Of a DNA stretch of 54,056 nt, positions 7,872 to 34,961 are shown piece by piece. The notes below the pieces were generated by a model. The model was not told the DNA's origin, ran no database searches, and saw only the letters and a program-made list of their open reading frames with translations. The stretch is from Ardenticatenia bacterium (GTDB taxonomy: Bacteria > Chloroflexota > Anaerolineae > 4572-78 > NAK82), in assembly GCA_003130875.1 (NCBI GenBank), contig QEXY01000118.1:1-54056 (forward strand), given 5' to 3'. The first letter of the stretch is position 1. Every line of letters begins with the position of its first letter. A program made the translations under genes and the position numbers.

Positions 7872-9077
7872 GTGTTACGTTTTCTGACTGCAGGGGAGTC
7901 GCACGGGGCGGAGTTGACTGCCATCCTCGAGGGGATGCCGGCCGGGTTACACCTCGCGCCGGAGCACATCGAGGGTGATCTGCGCCGTCGCCAGAAGGGT
8001 TACGGCTCCGGTGGACGCATGGGCATCGAGAAGGACACAGTGCGGATCAGCGCTGGCGTTTTGGGCGGAAAGACGACCGGTGCGCCCATTGCCCTCCACA
8101 TCGCCAATCTGGACCATGTGCGCTGGCGTGATCGCGAAATCGCCCCGATGACCATCCCCCGACCGGGCCACGCGGATCTTACTGGCGCGATCAAATATGG
8201 ATTGCGCGATCTGCGGTTGGCGCTGGAACGTGCCAGTGCTCGGGAGACCGCGGCACGTGTGGCTGTGGGGGCAGTGTGTCGTCATTTGCTGAGCCAGTTC
8301 GACATCACGATCGGCAGCTATGTGGTCAGCATCGGTGATGTGACAGCCGTCCTGCCGATCCCGGAAAATGATGTGGCCTATGCGACCTATCTGACGCGTT
8401 TCCAGGCCGCAGAAGCGAGTGAGGTGCGTTGTCCTGATCCCGAGGCAGCAGAGCGGATGCGTCAGGCGATCTGGAACACCATGCAAGCTAGAGACACGCT
8501 GGGGGGAGTCTTTGAAGTGGTGGCGCTGGGCGTGCCCCCCGGACTGGGTTCCTATGCTCAATGGGACCGCCGCCTCAGTGCGCGTCTGATGGCCGCAGTG
8601 GGCAGCATCCAGGCAGTGAAAGGGGTGGAAATCGGGCCAGCCTTTGAGAATACTCGTCTGCCCGGCACCCAAGTGCACGATGAGATCTTCCTCCAATCGA
8701 GCGATGAATCCATGGCTTCGGGTGAATTGGTCCGGCGCACGAACCGTGCCGGCGGACTGGAGGGAGGTATCTCTACTGGCTCGCCCATCGTGGTGCGTGG
8801 CGCGATGAAACCGATCTCCACGACGCTCAACCCACTGCGTTCGGTGGACTTGGCAACTGGCCAAGCGGCGACCACCCGTTATGAGCGCTCCGACTTCTGC
8901 GCGGTGCCGCGTGCCGCAGTCGTCGCCGAGGCCATGGTCGCCTTTGTCCTGGCAGATGCCTTGATTGAAAAGCTGGGTGGCGACAGCCTGGATGAGATGC
9001 GTGCGCGCTTTGCCACCCTGCGACGTGCGCGTCTGGGCGACCTTCCCATGGACAATGTCCCCTGGCAAATGTTTTGA
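7872..9077 (+). CDS. aroC: Chorismate synthase
   Basis: This 401-residue protein converts EPSP to chorismate using reduced FMN, the last shikimate-pathway step. It starts with GTG at 7872 and reads MLRFLTAGESHGAELTAILEG, the family's N-terminal signature. Other conserved blocks are RRQKGYGSGGRMGIE, RPGHADLTGAIKYG, RASARETAARVAVGA and the C-terminal NRAGGLEGGISTGSPIVVR. The length is normal or slightly long. The stop overlaps a possible TTG start of the next gene, and the spacing in the operon is tight. Confidence 0.96.
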   Translation: MLRFLTAGESHGAELTAILEGMPAGLHLAPEHIEGDLRRRQKGYGSGGRMGIEKDTVRISAGVLGGKTTGAPIALHIANLDHVRWRDREIAPMTIPRPGHADLTGAIKYGLRDLRLALERASARETAARVAVGAVCRHLLSQFDITIGSYVVSIGDVTAVLPIPENDVAYATYLTRFQAAEASEVRCPDPEAAERMRQAIWNTMQARDTLGGVFEVVALGVPPGLGSYAQWDRRLSARLMAAVGSIQAVKGVEIGPAFENTRLPGTQVHDEIFLQSSDESMASGELVRRTNRAGGLEGGISTGSPIVVRGAMKPISTTLNPLRSVDLATGQAATTRYERSDFCAVPRAAVVAEAMVAFVLADALIEKLGGDSLDEMRARFATLRRARLGDLPMDNVPWQMF

Positions 9078-9094
9078 CGGACAAAAGAGCCACT

Positions 9095-10720
9095 ATGCAC
9101 TTGACCACTCGTCGTAACCTTGTCCTCACCGGCTTCATGGGCTGTGGAAAGTCTGCCATCGGCCGTGAGGTTGCGCGCCGCATGGGGCGTGAGTTCGTGG
9201 ACACCGATCAGCTCATCGAGGCACGCACTGGCCGTTCTATTCCCGAGATCTTCGCTCGCGATGGTGAAGCCGTCTTCCGTGCCCTTGAGGCAGAGGTCTG
9301 TCGTGAACTGAGTGTGGAACGTGGCTTGGTGATCGCCACGGGAGGCTGGACGCTGGGGACGCCGGAAAACCGCATCGCCATTGCGGCAGGTGGACTGGTG
9401 ATCTGCCTGCGCGCTGACGCTGCGACTCTGATCGAACGGTTGGGGAGCGCCGAGGGACGCCCTATGTTGACAGATCAGGATTGGCAGGCACGTCTGCGAG
9501 GGCTGTTGGCAAGACGGCTGCCTGTGTATCTGAGCTTCCCGTTGCAGGTGAACACGGCCAACATAAGCGTCGAACAAGCAGCCGATCGGGTTCTGGCGCT
9601 GTGGGAAGCTTTCGGCGGGGACGGGGCAGAACATCTGCCAGTCAGCTTGCCGGTGACATATGGAGAAGAGGGTTACAGCGTGCTGATCCGCGATGGGTTG
9701 CTGGACCAGGCAGGTGTTTTGCTCGCTGCAACTGGCCGCTGGAGCGGCGTCGCAGTGATCAGCGATCAGGTGGTCGCGCCACTTTACACTTCTCAGCTGA
9801 CCACAGCTTTGCAACGGGCCGCCCAGCCGCCGTGCTCTGCCATGGCGATGGGGCATCCCATATTAGCGACTATGCCGGCCGGGGAGGCTTACAAAAATCT
9901 GGAGACGGTGACCGAGTTGTATGCCACGCTGCTTGCGGGTGGGCTGGACCGCGGCGGGTTGATTCTGGCGCTGGGCGGGGGTGTTGTGGGCGATGTTGCC
10001 GGCTTTACCGCTGCGACGTATATGCGCGGCGTGGCGTTGGCCCAACTGCCCACCACCCTGCTCGCTATGGTCGATTCGAGTGTGGGAGGCAAGACCGGCG
10101 TCGATTTACCGTATGGAAAGAACCTGGTCGGCGCCTTCAAGCAGCCGATCATGGTGCTGATCGACCCACTTGTGTTAAAGACACTGCCAGAACCTGAGCT
10201 GCGTGCTGGCATGGCCGAGGTGGTTAAAGCAGGCATCATCGGGGATCCGGAGCTGTTCGCATATCTGGAACGAGGTGCAATCACGGACATAGCCTGGCTT
10301 ATCCGCCGCGCAGTGGCAGTCAAGATCGCGGTCGTCGAGGCAGACCCTTATGAGCGTGGACGCCGTGCGGTGCTCAACCTGGGTCATACCTTCGGACACG
10401 CGTTCGAGCTTCTTTCGGAGTATCGCATGCGCCACGGAGAAGCGGTTGCCATCGGCATGGCCGTTGCTGCTCGGCTGGCTGTGCGGTTGGGGCTCTGTCG
10501 AGCGGAGACGGCCCAGCGTATTATCACCACTTTACAACACCTGGAACTACCCACCACTGTTCCGGCTTATCCTGCTGAAACAGTCTGGGAAGCGATGACA
10601 CACGACAAGAAAAAACACGGCAGCCGCCTGCGTTTTGTGCTCCTGCATGACATCGGTCGCGTTGAGATCCACGAGGATGTGCCGCGGGAAAGGGTGTTGG
10701 AAGTTCTGGAAGAAAAGTAG
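9095..10720 (+). CDS. aroKB: Fused shikimate kinase / 3-dehydroquinate synthase
   Basis: This 541-residue protein joins two shikimate-pathway enzymes. Residues 1 to about 175 are shikimate kinase: P-loop GFMGCGKS (13-20), FVDTDQLIE with the substrate-binding Asp, and GRPML of the lid. The usual GGG of the substrate loop reads GGW (VIATGGWTLG). Residues from about 185 on are dehydroquinate synthase: GGGVVGDVAGFTAATYMRG (NAD site), DSSVGGKTGVDLPYGKN (Lys network), the metal ligands in AEVVKAGII, LNLGHTFGHAFE and RHGEAVAIGM. I chose ATG at 9095; a TTG at 9074 overlapping the aroC stop would add seven residues. It completes steps 2 and 5 of the pathway. Confidence 0.94.
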   Translation: MHLTTRRNLVLTGFMGCGKSAIGREVARRMGREFVDTDQLIEARTGRSIPEIFARDGEAVFRALEAEVCRELSVERGLVIATGGWTLGTPENRIAIAAGGLVICLRADAATLIERLGSAEGRPMLTDQDWQARLRGLLARRLPVYLSFPLQVNTANISVEQAADRVLALWEAFGGDGAEHLPVSLPVTYGEEGYSVLIRDGLLDQAGVLLAATGRWSGVAVISDQVVAPLYTSQLTTALQRAAQPPCSAMAMGHPILATMPAGEAYKNLETVTELYATLLAGGLDRGGLILALGGGVVGDVAGFTAATYMRGVALAQLPTTLLAMVDSSVGGKTGVDLPYGKNLVGAFKQPIMVLIDPLVLKTLPEPELRAGMAEVVKAGIIGDPELFAYLERGAITDIAWLIRRAVAVKIAVVEADPYERGRRAVLNLGHTFGHAFELLSEYRMRHGEAVAIGMAVAARLAVRLGLCRAETAQRIITTLQHLELPTTVPAYPAETVWEAMTHDKKKHGSRLRFVLLHDIGRVEIHEDVPRERVLEVLEEK

Positions 10721-10790: not shown

Positions 10791-11801
10791 GTGCGGAAAC
10801 ATTGGCGCATCTGGCTGGGCATCTGTATCAGCATTCTGTTCCTCTACCTGGCATTGCGCAATCTCCATCTGGCAGATGTCTGGGAGGTGGCACGCACTGC
10901 ACGGTACGGCTGGATCATCCCTGGTGTGGCGGTCTATTTCGTGGGTGTTTGGGCGCGTACGTGGCGTTGGGATTATCTCTTGCGTCCTCTAAAACGTATT
11001 TCGTTGCGCCAGCTGTTTCCCATCGTGGTCATCGGCTACATGGGCAACAATGTATATCCGGCGCGTGCGGGCGAGTTGATCCGCGCTTATGTGTTGCGGC
11101 GACGCGAAGGGATCAGCATGAGCGCCTCGCTGGCCACCGTGATCATCGAACGTGTCTTCGACGGACTGGTGATGCTGATGTTTGTCTTCATCGGGTTGCC
11201 CTTCACCCCTATGCCGGCCTGGTTGCAGTGGATGGTGGTTGCATCTTCAGCACTCTTTTTCGGCGCGTTGGTCGTCTTCATCTGGCTGGCCGTCGATGTG
11301 CGTCGCACTGAAGCGGTCTACAGCTGGCTGATCGAGCGTGTGGTGCCGGCACGTTTTCGCACTAGTATGCTCGGCTTTGCTGGACGCTTCGTCAGCGGTC
11401 TGCGTGTGCTGCGCAGCGGGCGTGGTGTCTTGATGCTCTTTGTCACTTCGATCGTGATCTGGTTAGCGGAGACGGTCAAATATTGGTTTGTCATGCACGC
11501 ATTTGACTTTGAGGTACCTTTCTATGTGCTGATGCTGATGAATGGGGTTGTCAATCTGGCGACCACCATTCCCTCTTCGCCCGGCTACGTGGGCACGTTC
11601 GACGCACCAGGTATCGAGATTCTGAGTATTTGGGGAGTGTTGCGCAGCGTGGCTGCTGGATACACGCTGGTATTGCACGCTGCTTTATGGTTGCCGATCA
11701 CGCTGTTGGGGTTCTATTATATGGCGCGCGAAAGCATCAGCTGGCGCGACTTTCGTCGCGCTGTGGAGGTCGGAGAAGATGACTCGGGAGGACTCAGGTG
11801 A
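10791..11801 (+). CDS. Polytopic membrane protein, LPG synthase TM-domain family
   Basis: This 336-residue integral membrane protein belongs to the lysylphosphatidylglycerol-synthase transmembrane (UPF0104) family. I count about eight hydrophobic helices. Family markers are ARTWRWDYLL in the second loop, GYMGNNVYPARAGELIRAYVLRRREG near residue 85-110, and FDGLVMLMFVF; the C-terminal part has NLATTIPSSPGYVGTFDA, a conserved motif near the family's end. It has only the flippase-like membrane domain and lacks the aminoacyl-transferase domain, so lysinylation is not implied; a lipid or glycan transport role is more likely. The start is GTG with AAGGAAAAG upstream. It ends in a GTGA overlap with the next gene. 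Confidence 0.82.
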   Translation: MRKHWRIWLGICISILFLYLALRNLHLADVWEVARTARYGWIIPGVAVYFVGVWARTWRWDYLLRPLKRISLRQLFPIVVIGYMGNNVYPARAGELIRAYVLRRREGISMSASLATVIIERVFDGLVMLMFVFIGLPFTPMPAWLQWMVVASSALFFGALVVFIWLAVDVRRTEAVYSWLIERVVPARFRTSMLGFAGRFVSGLRVLRSGRGVLMLFVTSIVIWLAETVKYWFVMHAFDFEVPFYVLMLMNGVVNLATTIPSSPGYVGTFDAPGIEILSIWGVLRSVAAGYTLVLHAALWLPITLLGFYYMARESISWRDFRRAVEVGEDDSGGLR

Positions 11802-12505
11802 AGATCGCCATCATTGGAGCCGGTGTGGCCGGATTGACCGCCGCGTACCATCTCAGCGCGTTGGAACACCAGGTGGTGCTGTATGAAGCATCCGGACAGA
11901 CGGGGGGGCTGGCATCAGGCTTTCGCGACGCGCGTTGGGAATGGGCATTGGAGCGCTTTTATCACCATTGGTTTACTTCTGATGACGCGATTATCGACCT
12001 GATACGCCAGCTAGGACAGGAAGACAAGCTGTTCTTCCGTCGTCCGATCACTTCTATCTGGTACAAAGGGCGCATCTACCCCTTTGATAGCTATGTACGC
12101 GCGATGCTTTTTCCTCATCTTTCTATAATTGACAAGCTACGGGCGGCGCCAGTAGCGCTTTATCTGCGTTTGCTGCGCGATTGGCCACGTCTAGAACGTT
12201 ATACGGCACACGAGTGGCTGACACGCTGGATGGGGCGGCGCGGCTACCAGATTTTGTGGGAGCCATTGCTGGTGGGCAAGTTCGGCGAATATTACCAAGA
12301 GGTCAACATGGCATGGTTCTGGGCGCGGATTCACAAGCGCTCGCCGCGCCTGGGATATTTTGTGGGGGGATTCCAGGCGTTTCTGGATGTCCTGACAGAA
12401 CGAGTGCGCAAGCAAGGGGCTGAAATTCGCCTCCACACCCCGTGGAACGTATCGAAACAGAAACGCTTCCCACAGCGCCTGGTGAGCTCGCCAACCGCCT
12501 GCTGA
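11798..12505 (+). CDS. FAD-dependent oxidoreductase, N-terminal part (frameshifted)
   Basis: The reading frame starts at GTG in a four-base overlap with the previous gene and encodes the first part of a protein of the amine oxidase/protoporphyrinogen oxidase-like flavoprotein fold. Residues 1-60 have the ADP-binding signature IAIIGAGVAGLTAAYHLS with Glu at the end of strand 2 (VVLYEAS), then GGLASGF. It continues into the typical helical domain (YTAHEWLTRWMG, WEPLLVGKFG). After residue 213 the true reading frame is lost: the frame runs on for 22 residues with no family-like sequence to TGA at 12503, while the homology continues in another frame from 12442. A C-run (12438-12441) that is one base short explains it. 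Confidence 0.78.
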   Translation: MKIAIIGAGVAGLTAAYHLSALEHQVVLYEASGQTGGLASGFRDARWEWALERFYHHWFTSDDAIIDLIRQLGQEDKLFFRRPITSIWYKGRIYPFDSYVRAMLFPHLSIIDKLRAAPVALYLRLLRDWPRLERYTAHEWLTRWMGRRGYQILWEPLLVGKFGEYYQEVNMAWFWARIHKRSPRLGYFVGGFQAFLDVLTERVRKQGAEIRLHTPWNVSKQKRFPQRLVSSPTAC

Positions 12506-13104
12506 TCTACGCACAGGGGCAAACAGAAGCCTACGATCGGGTCATCGTCACCCTTTCACCCGGCCTGCTGGCGCGTATGGTGCCTGAGCTGCCTGAAAAT
12601 TACCTAGCCGGCCTGCGGCGGCTGAAGTCGCTGGGCGCGGTGGTGCTGATTCTGGCGCTCAACCAACGCCTGACCCAGGGCCATTACTGGATCAACCTCC
12701 CCAAGGGGGAAGGCTTTCCGTTCCTGGCATTGGTCGAGCATACCAATTTCATCGATCGGGAGCATTACGGCGGTGACCATTTGATCTACTGTGGCGATTA
12801 CCTCAAACCGGATCACGAATATTTCAGCCTGTCGCACGAGGAAATGCTGGCGCGTTTCCTGCCCACTTTGAAACGTTTCAACCCAGCTTTCACCCCAGAT
12901 TGGGTACGGGCCAGCTGGCTTTTCCGCGAGAAGTATGCCCAGCCGGTGCCAGGCGTGAATCATTCGTGCAACATCCCCGACCTAGCGACACCAATCAAAG
13001 GCCTCTTCTGGGCAAGCATGAGCCAGGTCTATCCTTGGGATCGCGGCACCAATTACGCTGTTGAGATGGGTCGAGAGGTGGCACGTCGGGCGCTGGCAGT
13101 GTAG
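12442..13104 (+). CDS. FAD-dependent oxidoreductase, C-terminal part (frameshifted)
   Basis: This 220-codon frame is the continuation of the flavoprotein that begins at 11798. It opens at a GTG that I take as an internal Val codon, not a start: no ribosome site precedes it and the text joins as TP-VERIETETLP if one C is added. It carries the substrate-domain strands (YDRVIVTLSPGLLARMVPELP) and the C-terminal FAD motif NIPDLATPIKGLFWASMSQVYPWDRGTNYAVEMG. Joined, the protein would be about 435 residues, normal for the family. Whether the frameshift is in the genome, an assembly error or a programmed shift cannot be seen here. The function is unknown; neighbours suggest envelope or polysaccharide metabolism. 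Confidence 0.78.
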   Translation: MERIETETLPTAPGELANRLLIYAQGQTEAYDRVIVTLSPGLLARMVPELPENYLAGLRRLKSLGAVVLILALNQRLTQGHYWINLPKGEGFPFLALVEHTNFIDREHYGGDHLIYCGDYLKPDHEYFSLSHEEMLARFLPTLKRFNPAFTPDWVRASWLFREKYAQPVPGVNHSCNIPDLATPIKGLFWASMSQVYPWDRGTNYAVEMGREVARRALAV

Positions 13105-26988: not shown

Positions 26989-27741
26989 GTGCTGGACCGT
27001 CTCAATCTCGAATTTCAGGATGTCCCGCCCAGGGATTGGAGACTGCTGATCAGTGTTCTGGTGATGGCCAATCTGGTCACATTGACCAGCTGCGGCTGGA
27101 TCGTGCTGAATCGAGTTTCTATCCCCCATGGGGTGCGTGGCCGCGTAATGGCTCAGCCCCTTGCCACCCGCACACCGTGGCCCACTTTCACACCCACTAT
27201 ACCCGTGACGCCCAGTCCAACCTATACGCGTATTCCCACGTGGACACCTTTCCACACTGTGACCCCAACACCCAGTGTGACTCCGACACCGACCGAAACA
27301 CCCCAACCACCCACGCCAGAGCGCATTGTGATGGACGCACCGCGGCCACCTACTCCCACATTCACTCCGACGCCTGCACACGATTTCATCGCTTCGGTGC
27401 GACAGCTGTCGCCGTGCGAGAACGAGGGGAAACATCATATTTTCATCCACGTGCGGGATAAGGAGGGACAGGGCATTCCTGGTGTGCGTGTGCACATCAC
27501 CTGGCCGGGAGGTGAGACATATGCCACGACCGGTCGTAAGCTGGAGGTCCACCCTGGATTCGTCGATTTCGCGATGTTTAAGGGCAGCTACACGTTGCAA
27601 CTGGCCGACCTGGATAGCGAGATAGTCGGGCCGTTGACGCCCGATATCCCACGTTCCGAGATGTGCGACAAGACAGGGAATCCGGTGGCCAATTCGATGT
27701 ACCATTACTCCTACGAGGTGGTGTTTCAGCAGGTGCGTTGA
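26989..27741 (+). CDS. Membrane-anchored Thr-Pro-rich protein
   Basis: This 250-residue protein has one hydrophobic helix (about 18-40, LLISVLVMANLVTLTSCGWIVL) that anchors it with the long part outside. A Thr-Pro-rich linker follows (about 60-127; repeats such as TPTPSVTPTPTETP), then a C-terminal beta domain (from about 130) with GIPGVRVHITWPGGETYATTGRK and YTLQLADLDSE, which resembles the carboxypeptidase-regulatory or Ig-like fold. Such linker-plus-domain proteins are a Chloroflexota habit. The ligand or partner is unknown. Start is GTG with GAAGGGCG close upstream. The next gene begins three bases after its stop, so the pair is cotranscribed. Confidence 0.72.
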   Translation: MLDRLNLEFQDVPPRDWRLLISVLVMANLVTLTSCGWIVLNRVSIPHGVRGRVMAQPLATRTPWPTFTPTIPVTPSPTYTRIPTWTPFHTVTPTPSVTPTPTETPQPPTPERIVMDAPRPPTPTFTPTPAHDFIASVRQLSPCENEGKHHIFIHVRDKEGQGIPGVRVHITWPGGETYATTGRKLEVHPGFVDFAMFKGSYTLQLADLDSEIVGPLTPDIPRSEMCDKTGNPVANSMYHYSYEVVFQQVR

Positions 27742-27744
27742 GAG

Positions 27745-29547
27745 ATGCCGGATTTCAAGCCGTGGCAATGGGTCGTGTTACTCACTTTGCTCGCCATAGT
27801 CAATGTGGTGGTGCTAGGCGGGCTGGGGGTGCTTATTCTCACCTATGACATCTGGGCCAACCCTCAATTGGAAATCGAGCGGAGTGGTGTCCCTTCTATG
27901 CCGAAGCCCAAGGCCGCTCTGCGCCCCACCTTCACTCCCACCTTCACCCCGCAGGTGTGGCCAACTCCGACGCATCCGCGCACCCCGACACCTGGACCAT
28001 CGCCTACTGCGACTTGGACGCCGTTGCCCACGCATACATTGTCACCTTTATTTGCTACGTCGCCCACTGCCACGCCGACTGTCACGTGCACTCCATCTCC
28101 TACATCGACGTGCACGCCCACACGCACGCCGGTGCCAACCCGTACACCCTTGCCTACTTGGACACCACTTCCGCTCGCGTCTTTAGTCGATTTGATCGCT
28201 ATGGCACCTTTTCCCACCACCTACACACCCACTCCCACGTTCACACCTACAGCCTCACCCACCATCACTGAGATACCCACAGCAACACCTACCGCTTCGT
28301 CCACTGCCACCAGCACGTCCACGCCTACGCGAACCGCATCACCTACTGCTACCGACACACCTACGCGCACGGAGACGCCCACTCCTACCCGAACGCTCAC
28401 GGCAACACCGACGGTCTCACCCACTGCTACTGATACGTCGACACCTACCGCGACATTCACCGCCCCCGCGACACCCGTGCCCACGGCGACATCGACCGCC
28501 TCACCCACCGCTACTGAGTCGCCTACGCCCACGTCCACACCCACGGCTGTTCGTAGTCTTTCACCCGCGCTAACGCCGACCCACATGCGCGAATCACTCA
28601 GGAATAGGCACGCAGGCGTTGCAGAGGCACGACCGATTGGGGCGGATATCATCACGATAAGTTGGCAGTCGATGCCCCGATCGCGGACCTATCGTCTCTA
28701 CAGCGATATGGGCAGTGGCTTCGGGATTTATGTGTTGCGAGCAGAGACGAAGGAGAACTCTTTTGTCGACACGTATTTGTGCCCGGCAATCTCTTACCGC
28801 TATCAGGTTGTCGCGTTGGATCACGAAGCTGAGACACCTCTGGCCGACCTAGTGATCATCACTCCACCGCAGCCTGCCTCGGCAAGTATTGGTAGTCGCA
28901 TGCTCATGACATTGCCCACTCCTACCCACGGTCCTATAACGGTCACACCAGCACCCACCCCACTCCCACCCGACACTGTCATCCTAGGCCTTCTCAGCGC
29001 CTCAGATCACATCGATGAGATCGAAGGTCATCTGATCATCGTCGGTGAAGTGCGCAATGACTCCAGTATGAGTGTCAGTGATGCAAGGGTGAGCCTCGTT
29101 CTCTACGATGCACAAGGTGTGTGCCAGGGGGAGATCGAGGGGAAGCCCGTGCTGAGCACCCTAGCACCGGGTGAGCGCACGCCTTTCATCCTGAAAGTAG
29201 AACCACCGAGCTCGGAAGTGCATTACAGCGTGCGAGCTACCGCGCGTGCCAAGAACGAAATGCGCACCAGCAGCACTTCAGTGTTACACGTCCTCAGCAC
29301 ACGTCGCTTTGAAGACGACATCGGTCTTTACCATGTGGCCGGCGTAGTGGCGAACAAAGGTGTACGTTATATCAAGCAAGCACGCGTGGTGGTTGTGCTC
29401 TACGACCGAGGAGATGGGGTGGTCAATGTGGGCTTCGGTTATCCCAGGCCTGCGGTCTTAGCACCGGGTGAGCGTGCTGAATTCGATGTCACGTTCACTT
29501 ATTATCCCAAGGTAGTTCGCCACACCGTGTTGGTAGTCACCGATTAG
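27745..29547 (+). CDS. Membrane-anchored Thr-Pro-rich protein with FxLYD-type domains
   Basis: This 600-residue protein has an N-terminal membrane helix (about 9-34), then a very long Thr-Pro-Ser tract (about 60-280, TPT/TAT/TRT repeats) and outer domains. Residues ~295-375 look like a fibronectin type III module ([31 protein letters not shown]). After a second short Thr-Pro linker come two related FxLYD-type beta domains: [12 protein letters not shown]-like text [20 protein letters not shown] with [10 protein letters not shown], and [20 protein letters not shown] with LYDRGDGVV. These domains occur in cell-surface proteins. The tract is likely O-glycosylated or an extended spacer (inference). 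ATG lies four bases after the previous gene. Confidence 0.76.
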
Positions 29548-29783: not shown

Positions 29784-29812
29784 TTGACGCGGCCAGACAG
29801 CGATAGTATAAT
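29784..29812 (+). promoter_or_regulatory. Promoter of the kinase/phosphatase operon
   Basis: TTGACG (29784-29789) and consensus TATAAT (29807-29812) are 17 bases apart, giving a start near 29819, 42 bases before the ATG at 29861. Confidence 0.8.
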
Positions 29813-29860: not shown

Positions 29861-31816
29861 ATGGAGACTCTCAAGCTTCAGCCTGAGCAAAGCGGACAAC
29901 GCAAGGCGATGAGCGCCACGCTGCCTCCTGGCACCGTTCTACAGGGGCGCTATCAAATCATTAAGGTGATTGGCTTGGGAGGCATGGGAGCCGTCTATCA
30001 GGTGCGCGACAGGCATTTCCAGGCAGCGCAACGTCTCTGCGCTCTAAAGGAAATGATTGTCAACACCAGTGATCCGTCCAAGCGCCGCCTTGCTGCCCAG
30101 ATTTTCGAGCGTGAGGCGAACATCCTGGCTGCGCTTAATCACCCTTCTATCCCCAAGATCCACGATTACTTCACCCATGAGGACCGGCACTATCTCGTGC
30201 TGGAATTCGTGGAAGGTATGGATCTTGAGGCGGTGTTGCGTGTCGTGCGTGCACCGTTGCCGGCCGAACGCGTCGTCGATTGGGCGATCCAGATTTGTGA
30301 CGTTTTAACCTATCTTCATGGTCACGAACCGCCCATTGTATTCCGCGACCTAAAGCCTTCTAACATTATGGTGCGTCCCTCCAATCAGATTGCATTGGTT
30401 GACTTTGGCATTGCACGCACGATCAACGTGGGAGATAGGGGGACTATGATCGGGACAGAAGGCTATTCACCCCCCGAACAGTATCGGGGTGTTGCTAGCC
30501 CACAAGGAGATATCTACGCGCTGGGTGCCACGATGCACCATCTCTTGACACGCCGTGACCCACGCTTGCACCCGCCTTTCACCTTTGCCGAAGAGCCCCC
30601 CAGTCGCGTGAACCCTTCGGTATCCAAAGAGTTAGAAGCCATCATCATGAAAGCGCTGGAATACGATCCAACGGTGCGCTACAGCTCCGCTGAGGAAATG
30701 AAAACAGCACTGCTGCGTTGTTGTGCCGTCTCGCAATCTTCAGCCAACATCTTGGCTTCCCTGCACATCCCTGTGTCCGTTGACCATCGCTTAGATGCAA
30801 AAGCATCTTCTCTCGAACCGCAAGTTGGCCAAGGTGTTGCAGTCTTGACGGGTCAATCCATTATGCCTATATGGCAATTTCGCTGCGAGGACGAGGTACG
30901 TTCATCTCCCGTGGTTGTCGACGGGGTTCTCTATGTGGGATGTTACGATAATAATTTGTATGCACTGAACGCCAGGACAGGCGAGTTCCTGTGGAAGTAT
31001 GCCACTGACGGAGGCATTGCCGCGACACCCTGTATCTGGAAGGACCGTGTTCTGTTCGGTTCTGAGGATCGTATCTTCTACGCTGTTTCCGCTCGCTCGG
31101 GTCGCATCCTATGGACCTGTCCCACCGAAGGCCGCATCCGGTCATCGGCTCGGGTGGAATTGGAACACGCCTTCTTCGGATCTGACGACCGGCGTCTGTA
31201 TGCAGTGAATGCCCACAACGGTCAGGTGGTATGGCGCTTCGAGGCCCTTGAAACCATTCGTTCCTCGCCAGCTATTGGGGACGAGATGGTGTACGTGGGC
31301 AGTGATGATCATCACCTGTATGCCGTTGACTTACAGACAGGGCGTCAACGCTGGAAGTTTCGCACCAATCGCAACATTATTTCCAGCCCAGTTCTGCACA
31401 ACGGCCTGGTCGTCTTTGGGTCGATGGATTGGAACGTTTACGCTCTGGATGAGCACTCCGGCTGGTCGGTATGGCGTTTTCGCACCGATCATGTGGTGGT
31501 CGGATCGCCTCGGGTTATGGGGGAGGTCGTGTACATTGGTTCCGCAGACGGTTATCTCTATGCGCTGGAACTCGGCAATGGTCGTTTGGTTTGGAAGTTC
31601 AATACTGGTAATCAGGTGGTCTCCACACCCGCTGTGACGGAGAAGAGCGTGTACATCAGCACGCTGGGAGGGGATATCATCAGCGTGAACCGGAAGACGG
31701 GCAAAGAGCAATGGCGGTTCAAGACAGGAGCGCCTGTTCCCTCTTCGCCCTGTGTATATGAAGATGCGGTCTATGTAGGCTCCAATGATCATTACGTGTA
31801 TGCACTCCCCGTATAA
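29861..31816 (+). CDS. Ser/Thr protein kinase fused to an eight-repeat PQQ-type propeller
   Basis: This 651-residue cytosolic protein has an N-terminal Hanks-type kinase domain (about 30-295) and a C-terminal beta-propeller (about 325-651). In the kinase, the Gly-rich loop is GLGGMG (38-43), the ATP-binding Lys is at 63 (ALKEM), catalytic Asp163 is in FRDLKPSN (Phe replaces His of HRD) and DFG is at 181-183; EGYSPPEQY is the activation-segment end. The propeller has eight regular units of about 40 residues, each ending near YALD-x-x-TG-x-x-xW, as in PQQ/BamB/YncE-type propellers. No membrane helix lies between the domains. It heads an operon with a PP2C, a VWA and an FHA protein. Confidence 0.9.
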   Translation: METLKLQPEQSGQRKAMSATLPPGTVLQGRYQIIKVIGLGGMGAVYQVRDRHFQAAQRLCALKEMIVNTSDPSKRRLAAQIFEREANILAALNHPSIPKIHDYFTHEDRHYLVLEFVEGMDLEAVLRVVRAPLPAERVVDWAIQICDVLTYLHGHEPPIVFRDLKPSNIMVRPSNQIALVDFGIARTINVGDRGTMIGTEGYSPPEQYRGVASPQGDIYALGATMHHLLTRRDPRLHPPFTFAEEPPSRVNPSVSKELEAIIMKALEYDPTVRYSSAEEMKTALLRCCAVSQSSANILASLHIPVSVDHRLDAKASSLEPQVGQGVAVLTGQSIMPIWQFRCEDEVRSSPVVVDGVLYVGCYDNNLYALNARTGEFLWKYATDGGIAATPCIWKDRVLFGSEDRIFYAVSARSGRILWTCPTEGRIRSSARVELEHAFFGSDDRRLYAVNAHNGQVVWRFEALETIRSSPAIGDEMVYVGSDDHHLYAVDLQTGRQRWKFRTNRNIISSPVLHNGLVVFGSMDWNVYALDEHSGWSVWRFRTDHVVVGSPRVMGEVVYIGSADGYLYALELGNGRLVWKFNTGNQVVSTPAVTEKSVYISTLGGDIISVNRKTGKEQWRFKTGAPVPSSPCVYEDAVYVGSNDHYVYALPV

Positions 31817-31910
31817 AGCGCATTGGGCGTGTCGTCTCCTGTTCAGGTTCGACGTCGCTCGTTTGTTGTGCATCATTGTGCCAGATTGAGGACAAGGGTT
31901 TCTTGATGCG

Positions 31911-32807
31911 ATGAGCTTCTCTTCTCAAGACTCTACTATCTCCCAAGGGGAATATAGTGATAGAGCCATTCCTGTTAAACGCAGAGCCTCTCAAGGGGTG
32001 TCTAGCGAGTTGAAACCTGCGATCGTGCGAACTGCACCGCGCGGATTAACCGTTGTCCAGAACTCTCACATCGGGCGGGTGCGACAACACAATGAAGACG
32101 CATGGTTGGTGCTGGATTTGAGCTATCGGGAGAACGATGCTCACGTGATGGTTGCTCTGCTCATTCTGGCCGACGGGATGGGCGGTCATGCAAGTGGGGA
32201 TCTGGCAAGTGCGTTGGCGGCTCGCACGGCTGCCGCCTGTGTGATGCAGGATATCATGCCGTCTTACCTCTCGCCCGAAGTGGCAGGTACTCCGCATTAT
32301 TCCCTTCACGAGGCGCTGGTGCACGCGGTACAGGTTGCCAACGAGACCGTGTACCGCAATCTCCCTCACGCCGGTACGACCTTGACTATGGCCCTGGTGC
32401 TTGGCCGGAAAGCTTACGTGGCCCATGTGGGCGACAGTCGAGCGTATGTGCTCGAAAATGGCACCTTGCGGCGCATCACTCGAGATCATTCGCTCGCAGC
32501 GCGGCTTGTGGAAACCGGACAGACTATTTCCGAAGAGATGGTGGGCCAGCGTAACATTCTGTACCGAGCTGTTGGTCATAGCAATACAATCGAAGTGGAC
32601 ACGTACACCGAATCGCTCTTCGATGGCAGTTGCCTGTTACTGTGCAGTGATGGTCTATGGTCCAAAATGTCCGATGCGGAGATCGCGGAGGTGCTCATGG
32701 GCGAGACCGATGCGCAATTTGCCGTCAACAAGCTGATCGCCATGGCAAACGAGCGCGGTGGCGAGGACAACATCACGGTGATCCTTGCTGTGTGCAACGA
32801 AGGTTGA
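31911..32807 (+). CDS. PP2C-family Ser/Thr phosphatase
   Basis: This 298-residue protein has the PP2C catalytic motifs: RQHNEDAW (metal-binding region), ADGMGGHASGDLAS, YVAHVGDSRAYVLENG, CSDGLWSKMSDAEI and GGEDNITVIL. The metal-binding Asp residues are in place, so it should be an active Mn/Mg phosphatase. The first ~45 residues are polar and variable, with no membrane segment. It is the natural counterpart of the kinase 94 bases upstream and would reverse its phosphorylations. The start at ATG 31911 lacks a strong ribosome site (GACAAGG further upstream); an internal start is possible but less likely given the extension. Confidence 0.93.
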   Translation: MSFSSQDSTISQGEYSDRAIPVKRRASQGVSSELKPAIVRTAPRGLTVVQNSHIGRVRQHNEDAWLVLDLSYRENDAHVMVALLILADGMGGHASGDLASALAARTAAACVMQDIMPSYLSPEVAGTPHYSLHEALVHAVQVANETVYRNLPHAGTTLTMALVLGRKAYVAHVGDSRAYVLENGTLRRITRDHSLAARLVETGQTISEEMVGQRNILYRAVGHSNTIEVDTYTESLFDGSCLLLCSDGLWSKMSDAEIAEVLMGETDAQFAVNKLIAMANERGGEDNITVILAVCNEG

Positions 32808-32872
32808 GATGACAATGCCGATGGGGTGTCCAGCCGAGCCATTGGGAAGGGATCGGCAAAAGGAGACTGTTG

Positions 32873-34207
32873 ATGCCCATGTCCTACGCAAGTGACCGAG
32901 GAACGCAGCCTATTGAACAGGTCGGCTCGGTATTTCGTCTCCGAGCGATCAGAAGTCACGAATACTTGCCAGCACGTGCTGAAGAACAGGCCTATTATGT
33001 GCTCCTAAGCGTGGCAGTGCGACAGGACCTGCCCTATGAGCGCATGCCTTTGAACCTCTGCCTTGTTCTGGACCGCAGCACGTCTATGAGCGGGGTTCGA
33101 CTCCAGGCGGTACGTGAGGGAGTTCAATACATTGTCGATCATATTTCCTCGGATGATGTCCTGAGTATTGTTGTATTTAACGACCGCGCTGAAGTGTTGT
33201 TATCTTCTCAAAGAAACACCGACCGCGCCCGAGTCCGGGCTATCGTGAGCACAATACAGCCGGCTGGTGGCACAGAGCTGCTGCAGGGGCTGGGAGCCGG
33301 CATACGCGAAGTGATGCGCGGCAAAAGCGAGCGCTCGCTCAATCACCTCATCCTCCTGACAGATGGGCATACCTACGGCGATGAGCAAGGCTGCCTGGAA
33401 ATGGCGAAATGGGCTGGCCAAAATCATATCGGTATGACCTTGATGGGTCTTGGCGAAGACTGGAACGAGGCTCTTCTGGATCAAATGGCGGCTCTATCCG
33501 GTGGACGTTCGATTTACATTGATTCGCCGCGCAAGGTCGTGGAGGCGTTTGGGCAGATTGTCAATCTCTTGTCTGGAGCGGCTTCCCGCCAGTCTCAGTT
33601 GCATATTACGCTGGGACCTTCGGTGACGTTGCACGAGATGTTTCAGATTACACCCGAAATCCAGCGGGTACTCGTTGTCTCCACGGAGCGAGGTCACGCA
33701 GCCGAGTTGGGGTTGTTGGGTAGAGATTCGGGACGTGAGCTCTTGATGGAGTTTCGCGTGCGTGACCTGAAACCTGGTGTGCAGATGATTGCCTCCTTGG
33801 ATGTGGAGCTTGTAGCGCCGGGTGGCATCGTCTCAGGTCAGTTGTGTCGCGAACAAATCACGTTGAACGTTGAAGGCTTCTCATTGGAAGCTCCCGATGC
33901 ACCACTTATCTCGAGCTCTAAGATACCAACTGCCATTCCCAATGCACTGACCCGGGTCGTCCTGTTTAAAATGCACGAGAGGGCAATTGCCGACCTGGAG
34001 GCAGGTCGGATTGATGCCGCCACGCAACGTCTGGAAACAATGGCCAGCCGACTGGCAGCGATTGGTGAGACGGAGCTCGCGCGTGTGGCGATGCTGGAAG
34101 CAGGTCAGCTGGCACACACGGGGATGTTATCCCCTGAGGGGCGGAAGAAGATCCATTACGGCACACGGGCACTGTCACTGACTTCTCGAGGCAAGGACCA
34201 TGATTGA
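32873..34207 (+). CDS. VWA domain protein of the kinase operon
   Basis: This 444-residue cytosolic protein has a von Willebrand A domain (about 60-240) with a MIDAS-type DRSTSM in LNLCLVLDRSTSM, then GGTELLQGL and LILLTDGHTYGD. The next ~100 residues form a beta-rich segment (LHITLGPSVTLHEMF) and the C-terminal ~100 residues are helical (KMHERAIADLEAG, LAAIGETELARVAMLEAG). The VWA domain would bind partner proteins through the metal site. I chose ATG at 32873, preceded by AGGAGA, over the TTG one codon earlier. It overlaps the FHA gene by eight bases and so is translationally coupled. Confidence 0.88.
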   Translation: MPMSYASDRGTQPIEQVGSVFRLRAIRSHEYLPARAEEQAYYVLLSVAVRQDLPYERMPLNLCLVLDRSTSMSGVRLQAVREGVQYIVDHISSDDVLSIVVFNDRAEVLLSSQRNTDRARVRAIVSTIQPAGGTELLQGLGAGIREVMRGKSERSLNHLILLTDGHTYGDEQGCLEMAKWAGQNHIGMTLMGLGEDWNEALLDQMAALSGGRSIYIDSPRKVVEAFGQIVNLLSGAASRQSQLHITLGPSVTLHEMFQITPEIQRVLVVSTERGHAAELGLLGRDSGRELLMEFRVRDLKPGVQMIASLDVELVAPGGIVSGQLCREQITLNVEGFSLEAPDAPLISSSKIPTAIPNALTRVVLFKMHERAIADLEAGRIDAATQRLETMASRLAAIGETELARVAMLEAGQLAHTGMLSPEGRKKIHYGTRALSLTSRGKDHD

Positions 34208-34685
34208 ATGTCCCAATTGCCACACCAAGTTTATTGCAAATACACTGGTATGCAGCGAGTGCGGCGCTTTGCTGCCCCCCGAGGAATGGGTTAGTAACGA
34301 GATCTCGACTGAGATCACAAGAGAGCAAGCCGAATCCACTACGGAGTTGGGGCTGCCTCCAGCTGTGCGCTTATACATGGGCGAGGAAACTGACCAGAGC
34401 ATCGACGTTGTCCTGGATAAAAAGGTGATCATTGGTCGCTCCGATCCCGCCAGCCAAGTGTTTCCTGAGATCGATCTGGCACCCTACGGCGGTTTGGAAA
34501 AAGGTGTGTCACGGCGCCATGCCCGTCTTTCTTCACGCCGCGGATTGATCATCATTGAGGATCTCGCCAGCATTAATGGCACCTATCTGAATGGCAAACG
34601 GCTGACACCTTATCTGCCTGAAGTGGTCCACGATGGTGACCAGATTCAGATCGGCAGTCTTCCCATTCGAGTTGAGGTGCTTTGA
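34200..34685 (+). CDS. Zinc-ribbon/FHA domain protein
   Basis: This 161-residue protein begins with a zinc ribbon, MIECPNCHTKF...CSECG (Cys at 4, 7, 18 and 21), and ends with a forkhead-associated (FHA) domain from about residue 70. The FHA landmarks are IIGRSDP, GVSRRHARLSSRRG and ASINGTYLNG, which together form the phosphothreonine pocket. FHA domains recognise phospho-Thr and so it is a likely reader of the upstream kinase. It starts inside the VWA gene (eight-base overlap). The linker between the two modules is acidic. The target of the zinc ribbon is unknown. Confidence 0.92.
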   Translation: MIECPNCHTKFIANTLVCSECGALLPPEEWVSNEISTEITREQAESTTELGLPPAVRLYMGEETDQSIDVVLDKKVIIGRSDPASQVFPEIDLAPYGGLEKGVSRRHARLSSRRGLIIIEDLASINGTYLNGKRLTPYLPEVVHDGDQIQIGSLPIRVEVL

Positions 34686-34715
34686 GAAGGTTTCTGGAGC
34701 ACGGAGGTTGAGTCT

Positions 34716-34961
34716 ATGGCATTTACGGTTCTGATCCATCTACAAGGTAGTGATCCTATTATGGCTGAGATGGATGCATTGCCGGACCCGCATGCAAATT
34801 ATATCCTCTGTACCAATCCGCGTGCACGTGATGGCAAGAACTTGGTGTTCATCGAACCAGGTTGCACACGTTTCATGTTCCCGTGGCATCGCATCAATTT
34901 CATCGAGGCGTTCCCATCCGAGGAAGATCAGACGCGGATCGAAACCTTTTTCCGCGAATAG
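34716..34961 (+). CDS. 81-residue conserved-looking protein of the kinase operon
   Basis: I do not recognise this 81-residue protein. The ATG at 34716 follows GGAGG by eight bases and lies 30 bases after the FHA gene, so it is expressed and coupled to the operon. The sequence has no signal or membrane segment. It looks like a small alpha/beta domain: two or three strands with the segment LVFIEPGCTRFMFPWHRINFIEAF, then an acidic helix SEEDQTRIETFF. Two Cys are present (CTNPR and GCTRF). It could be a small adaptor or ligand-binding protein of the kinase system; that is speculation. Confidence 0.7.
   Translation: MAFTVLIHLQGSDPIMAEMDALPDPHANYILCTNPRARDGKNLVFIEPGCTRFMFPWHRINFIEAFPSEEDQTRIETFFRE

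Follow-up and report, generated by a model that had tools for sequence, protein, structure and literature searches.

A conserved five-gene operon of Chloroflexota as a candidate intracellular threonine-phosphorylation switch

Introduction

TerY-P systems contain a kinase, a PP2C phosphatase and a standalone vWA protein encoded by neighbouring genes. Neighbouring kinase, PP2C and vWA genes are also found in actinobacterial GAP1-N2 systems (PMC7159879). In Pseudomonas aeruginosa, kinase, PP2C, VWA and FHA components act together in the PpkA/PppA/Fha1 pathway of the type VI secretion system (T6SS; PMC3224232), and AfsK of Streptomyces consists of an N-terminal Ser/Thr kinase and a C-terminal PQQ propeller (PMC1262709). 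Here we describe an operon on a 54,056-nucleotide stretch of Ardenticatenia bacterium DNA (contig QEXY01000118.1, in the following termed the window), which encodes a kinase–propeller, a PP2C phosphatase, a VWA protein, an FHA protein and an unnamed 81-residue protein termed S81. Each domain combination has known relatives, namely PpkA/PppA/Fha1, AfsK and the kinase-PP2C-vWA genes of GAP1-N2 systems. The operon as a whole is, in our view, probably a self-contained intracellular Thr-phosphorylation switch that goes back to one ancestral operon of the Chloroflexota. Its components are:

29784–29812, + strand: sigma-70-like promoter TTGACG-17-TATAAT, 5′ of the kinase gene, 11/12 consensus matches
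29861–31816, + strand: kinase–propeller gene, 651 residues, with a Ser/Thr kinase (residues 31–281) and an eight-bladed PQQ-type propeller (residues ~335–651)
31911–32807, + strand: PP2C-family Ser/Thr phosphatase gene, 298 residues
32873–34207, + strand: VWA gene, 444 residues, its ATG seven bases past AAGGAG
34200–34685, + strand: FHA gene, zinc ribbon and FHA domain, 161 residues
34716–34961, + strand: S81 gene, unnamed family, 81 residues

The T6SS pathway resembles this arrangement in that kinase, PP2C, VWA domain and FHA are encoded in one locus; its FHA protein is a substrate of the kinase (PMC3224232), as is proposed here. In PpkA, however, kinase and VWA domain belong to one transmembrane protein encoded within a T6SS locus, whereas the present operon has a propeller kinase, a separate VWA gene and S81 in addition. 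Among NCBIfam models the whole kinase–propeller matches AfsK best, yet with 244 bits it stays far below the cut-off of 1300 (NF053615), and the protein described here differs by its fixed PP2C-VWA-FHA-S81 partners and its neighbourhood. Compared to the TerY-P and GAP1-N2 triads, the present operon has FHA, propeller and S81 as fixed additions. A preceding sequence-only reading had pointed to the known kinase/PP2C/VWA triads but missed PpkA/PppA/Fha1 as the functionally closer parallel. Its opinion that the set with its fusions is undescribed is supported for the five genes together, of which no account was found in the open-licence literature, but not for a soluble-looking kinase–PQQ fusion, already known from AfsK (PMC1262709).

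Conservation and descent of the operon

The five reading frames are co-directional and form one tight operon, as the sequence-only reading had claimed. Pfam assigns the kinase, PQQ propeller, PP2C, VWA and FHA domains with E-values of 7e-40, 8e-76, 5e-15, 4e-16 and 6e-16, respectively, and NCBIfam likewise backs these assignments. Gaps of 94, 65 and 30 bases separate kinase from PP2C, PP2C from VWA and FHA from S81, while VWA and FHA genes overlap by eight bases (ATGATTGA) spanning the VWA stop. The promoter expected before the operon is present in sequence; promoter-like sites in the region are not more frequent than in shuffles (3 versus 4.6), and its function as the operon promoter is suggested by its position only. 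A scan listed no terminator-like sites in the operon gaps, and the sites it listed are no commoner than in shuffles.

About 100 neighbourhoods of relatives were collected and the gene order was counted in the 70 loci with at least 5.7 kb of upstream sequence. The complete order kinase-PP2C-VWA-FHA-S81 is found in 44 of them. Four loci lack PP2C, one lacks VWA, one is reduced to kinase-PP2C-S81, six to kinase-S81, eight to FHA-S81 and six to S81 alone; no locus is permuted, and the reduced ones all keep their remaining genes in the order of the full set. Such conservation across the phylum excludes a chance arrangement, and the fixed order of five genes argues that their products work together. 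The proposal of one coupled unit is thus upheld by the neighbourhood comparison, and its foreseen refutation, a loose cluster of variable order, fails. S81 is found in 55/100 relatives, a profile built on it matches 131/400 genomes of the phylum, and of the 80 genomes that have a VWA orthologue (over 400 bits), 76 encode S81 within 3.5 kb of it. The 43 relatives with a name belong without exception to the Chloroflexota, as obtained by a sequence scan with 12 close S81 rows and an all-phyla scan with strict peptides; they comprise Anaerolineae, Chloroflexus, Chloroploca and Viridilinea, an Ardenticatenia bin being closest to the window. Additional kinase-S81 pairs are present in L202, L203, L204 and L206. 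Well-supported groups of the kinase tree match genus, family and class, which is consistent with descent more than with exchange of the kinase sequences, and in its own genome the kinase is a single copy (1013 bits, the next kinase reaching 266). In L199 and L200, from another family of the class, kinase-PP2C-VWA-FHA is followed by a second kinase, and S81 is lacking; the four-gene cassette therefore has a second form.

Two relationships suggested by the known systems have to be weighed at this point. A degenerate or repurposed T6SS Thr-phosphorylation pathway, controlling secretion or a contractile machine, would account for the four shared domain types (PMC3224232). However, the genome of the window (95.9% complete) contains no VipB/PF05943 sheath gene, which was detected in an E. 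coli control, the VWA domain is separate from the kinase and no transmembrane segment is seen after kinase residue 300. Since neither the sheath gene nor a transmembrane kinase–VWA fusion was found, this explanation was rejected and we consider it the least probable of all. It is also very unlikely that the operon is a defence module akin to TerY-P or to the vWA/MoxR conflict systems. Such systems do include triads of kinase, PP2C and vWA (PMC7159879), and the kinase scores against PADLOC kinases, but these matches (PD-T4-6, mad6) hit kinase domains in general and were not used as evidence for defence. The recurrent neighbours include no effector, MoxR or nuclease gene, and the operon is one vertically kept single copy, not a patchy variable effector set. 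A search of the genome for the TerD family (PF02342) found none, by which the earlier comparison with Ter systems fails and a Ter function was rejected. According to the list of open reading frames (ORFs), the window has a MoxR-like gene (1277–2176), which is 28 kb off and lies beside a CoxE-like gene.

The kinase–propeller protein

Among 45 aligned relatives the kinase residues K63, E85, D163, K165, N168 and D181 are invariant or nearly so; no variation among the 45 kinases affects the catalytic Lys, Glu and Asn, the RD Asp or the DFG Asp. The propeller consists of eight 40-residue units with Trp at 338, 378 and so forth up to 618. The structural model of the protein (predicted local distance difference test, pLDDT, 87.9) shows an ordered kinase domain, a disordered linker (292–331) and a propeller with values of 95–98, while the N-terminal tail stays under 60. 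Superposition of the propeller model onto the designed closed eight-bladed Cake8 aligned 312 residues at 1.0 Å (Z 50.1); the ring is therefore predicted to close, as had been set beforehand as a test. Beyond kinase residue 300 no stretch reached the hydrophobicity of a membrane helix, in agreement with the kinase–propeller without membrane helix read from the sequence. Thus, the architecture corresponds to an active kinase followed by a closed propeller, activity being judged from the residues only.

Direct sensing of a cytosolic ligand by the propeller, as previously asserted, is only inferred, a protein scaffold being equally possible. In the latter scenario, a propeller of WD40/BamB type would serve as a protein-protein scaffold instead of a ligand sensor, and dimerisation or binding of S81 or VWA would activate the kinase. 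The structural matches of the propeller include BamB and WD40 peptide-binding propellers (Z 37–41), and the two-gene kinase-S81 loci retain just a small partner next to the kinase. The invariant propeller residues, however, fit a ligand pocket as well as a protein surface and do not distinguish between them; we regard the scaffold function as only slightly short of an even call.

Phosphatase, VWA and FHA proteins

The PP2C fold is present together with its metal ligands D63, D88, D247 and D286, retained in 57–59 of 59 sequences; against the Stp1/IreP model NF033484 the phosphatase reaches 206.9 bits, just below the cut-off of 230. In the VWA protein the MIDAS (metal ion-dependent adhesion site) motif of the VWA domain is intact, D68, S70, S72, T135 and D165 being retained in 63–64 of 64 sequences (counted from the TTG at 32870, which puts each number one higher than a count from the ATG), and the C-terminal half is uncharacterised. 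The zinc-ribbon cysteines C4, C7, C18 and C21 of the FHA protein are conserved in 72/72 relatives, as are G79, R80, S104, R105, H107 and N126, while T128 is found in 68/72; the GR, SxxH and NG(T) residues for phosphothreonine (pThr) binding are thus in place. With active-site and ligand residues kept in kinase, PP2C and FHA protein, the proposed roles of writer, eraser and reader appear well founded on the sequence level.

A Thr-x-x-[ILV] motif in kinase tails and FHA linkers

FHA domains read pThr, not phosphorylated Ser, with an aliphatic residue at position +3. Candidate sites of this kind occur in two of the proteins:

29867–29878, + strand: kinase T3-L-K-L6, T-x-x-[ILV] in the disordered N-terminal tail, putative FHA docking/autophosphorylation site
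34338–34349, + strand: FHA-protein T47-T-E-L50, T-x-x-[ILV] in the stretch that links zinc ribbon to FHA domain

The N-terminal tails of the kinases look unconserved yet contain T-[RK]-x-[IL], in many cases more than once, with seven motif copies in L131 (e.g. DDSTRGL and NDSTRSI). Counting of Ile, Leu and Val at the positions around Thr revealed a single peak, at +3. In the kinase tails (n=56) 80 were found versus 32.8 expected (z 9.3; nonredundant 71 versus 29, z 9.0) and in the FHA linkers 122 versus 56 (z 10.4; nonredundant 70 versus 39, z 5.9). No +3 peak was obtained with Ser in place of Thr, and the two large controls were flat at +3 (z 0.2 for 321 flank N-termini and z 0.9 for 308 disorder-like segments); VWA tails were below expectation (z -2.0). 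Since the enrichment is restricted to Thr with an aliphatic residue at +3, it fits recognition by FHA. We infer from these motif counts that the kinase may phosphorylate its own tail and the FHA protein at T-x-x-[ILV] and that the FHA domain may read these marks.

A Thr motif N-terminal to the FHA domain is also known from GarA/OdhI and FhaB, and linkers of the ETT type occur in relatives of other classes. The FHA protein scores 47 bits against FhaB (cut-off 125) and 33 against OdhI (cut-off 200), in both cases below threshold, and in contrast to these proteins it carries a zinc ribbon, and the T-x-x-I/L motif is found on the kinase too.

The 81-residue protein S81

S81 has no match in Pfam, NCBIfam, PADLOC or PHROG; searches against Pfam with 49 members, and against PDB sequences and PHROGs, gave nothing coherent, and none of the 49 matched LSM/Hfq families in sequence at E up to 5. 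The earlier description as an unknown protein therefore stands, and S81 is no mere appendage, being the most widely kept part of the operon. No plasmid carries S81 in a plasmid search. The model (pLDDT 87.5) is a five-strand barrel whose top structural matches (Foldseek, VIA) are mostly Sm/LSm proteins; the best values (Z 7.6, Foldseek E 0.02) are middling and below the level that separates true kin, and S81 is predicted to be Sm-like in fold only. An RNA-binding Sm protein by which the operon couples phosphorylation to RNA metabolism would explain the dominance of Sm/LSm folds among these matches, but the middling scores and the missing LSM or Hfq sequence match make this unlikely, and Sm-like barrels serve also as protein-binding modules. 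The reduced kinase-S81 and FHA-S81 loci tie S81 to both proteins and suggest that it contacts both.

An apparent 249-residue S81 fusion in L064/L065 was rejected as an out-of-frame ORF extension. In family f67 (L137, L138, L139, L140, L141 and L142), S81-like proteins encoded outside a kinase context bear an additional acidic C-terminal tail that ends in DEDFLRRIRDV or a similar sequence.

Downstream response regulators and genomic surroundings

An OmpR-type response regulator is encoded by the co-directional gene immediately after the operon in about 13 loci of the class, which represent some ten families; no histidine kinase was seen in the stretch following it. Ser/Thr kinases modify such response regulators, including the orphan RitR (PMC4601284). 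Where it is adjacent, the orphan response regulator is a candidate output, which is then likely transcriptional. In L066, L070 and L055 the regulator gene is immediately followed by a small GTPase-like gene, which hints at a longer operon in some families.

Just 5′ of the operon in the window (26989–29547, + strand), two neighbouring genes encode proteins that have a hydrophobic N-terminal stretch, long Thr-Pro-rich spacers and no Pfam match. Further upstream, a shikimate kinase is fused to 3-dehydroquinate synthase (9074–10720, + strand) amid apparent shikimate-pathway genes, and a flavin amine oxidase-like gene (11798–13104, + strand) is split over two overlapping frames, 11798–12505 covering profile positions 1–224 and 12442–13104 covering 239–443, due to either a frameshift or an assembly error.

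Proposed mechanism and implications

Consistent with these data we propose the following scenario. The soluble kinase would receive its input via the closed eight-bladed propeller and phosphorylate Thr in the T-x-x-I/L motifs of its own N-terminal tail and of the FHA linker. The FHA domain might bind these phospho-marks in cis or in trans, which would assemble or open the complex, and PP2C would erase them. For the VWA protein with its MIDAS motif and for S81 with its predicted Sm-like fold, we presume a role as scaffold or adaptor of kinase and FHA protein, and the output may be transcriptional in lineages with an orphan OmpR-type response regulator as the next gene.

Several observations weigh against this scenario. 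The HRD motif of the kinase is written FRD, although its Asp is retained. The motif test was devised post hoc from sequences already seen, on related rows; PP2C tails, intended as a negative control, are enriched (z 5.3), being possibly a third target of marking, and kinase–propeller linkers slightly so (z 2.0). The motif is absent from about a fifth of the kinase tails and from the FHA linker of the closest relative (L034), and the kinase T3 motif exists only if translation starts at the ATG at 29861, since a start from the in-frame ATG at codon 17 would remove it. Finally, the gene following the operon in the window is a phosphomannomutase, and the response-regulator orthologue (68% identical) sits on another contig of the genome, with no histidine kinase next to it. 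Only tentatively do we extend the switch to an unrecognised core system of the Chloroflexota, in which the propeller kinase tags its own tail and the FHA reader with pThr-x-x-Ile/Leu, is joined by an Sm-fold protein turned signalling adaptor and feeds into an orphan response regulator.

The T-x-x-I/L motif names exact testable residues, and the fixed gene order supplies the interaction set. S81 represents a conserved family without a name, whose members annotation pipelines list as hypothetical proteins. If the scenario is true, the Chloroflexota, including cultured Chloroflexus, would own a Ser/Thr phosphorylation switch at the level of the phylum, ranking with PknB/Stp of other phyla but, unlike PknB/Stp, soluble and equipped with a reader, a scaffold and a small partner of its own.

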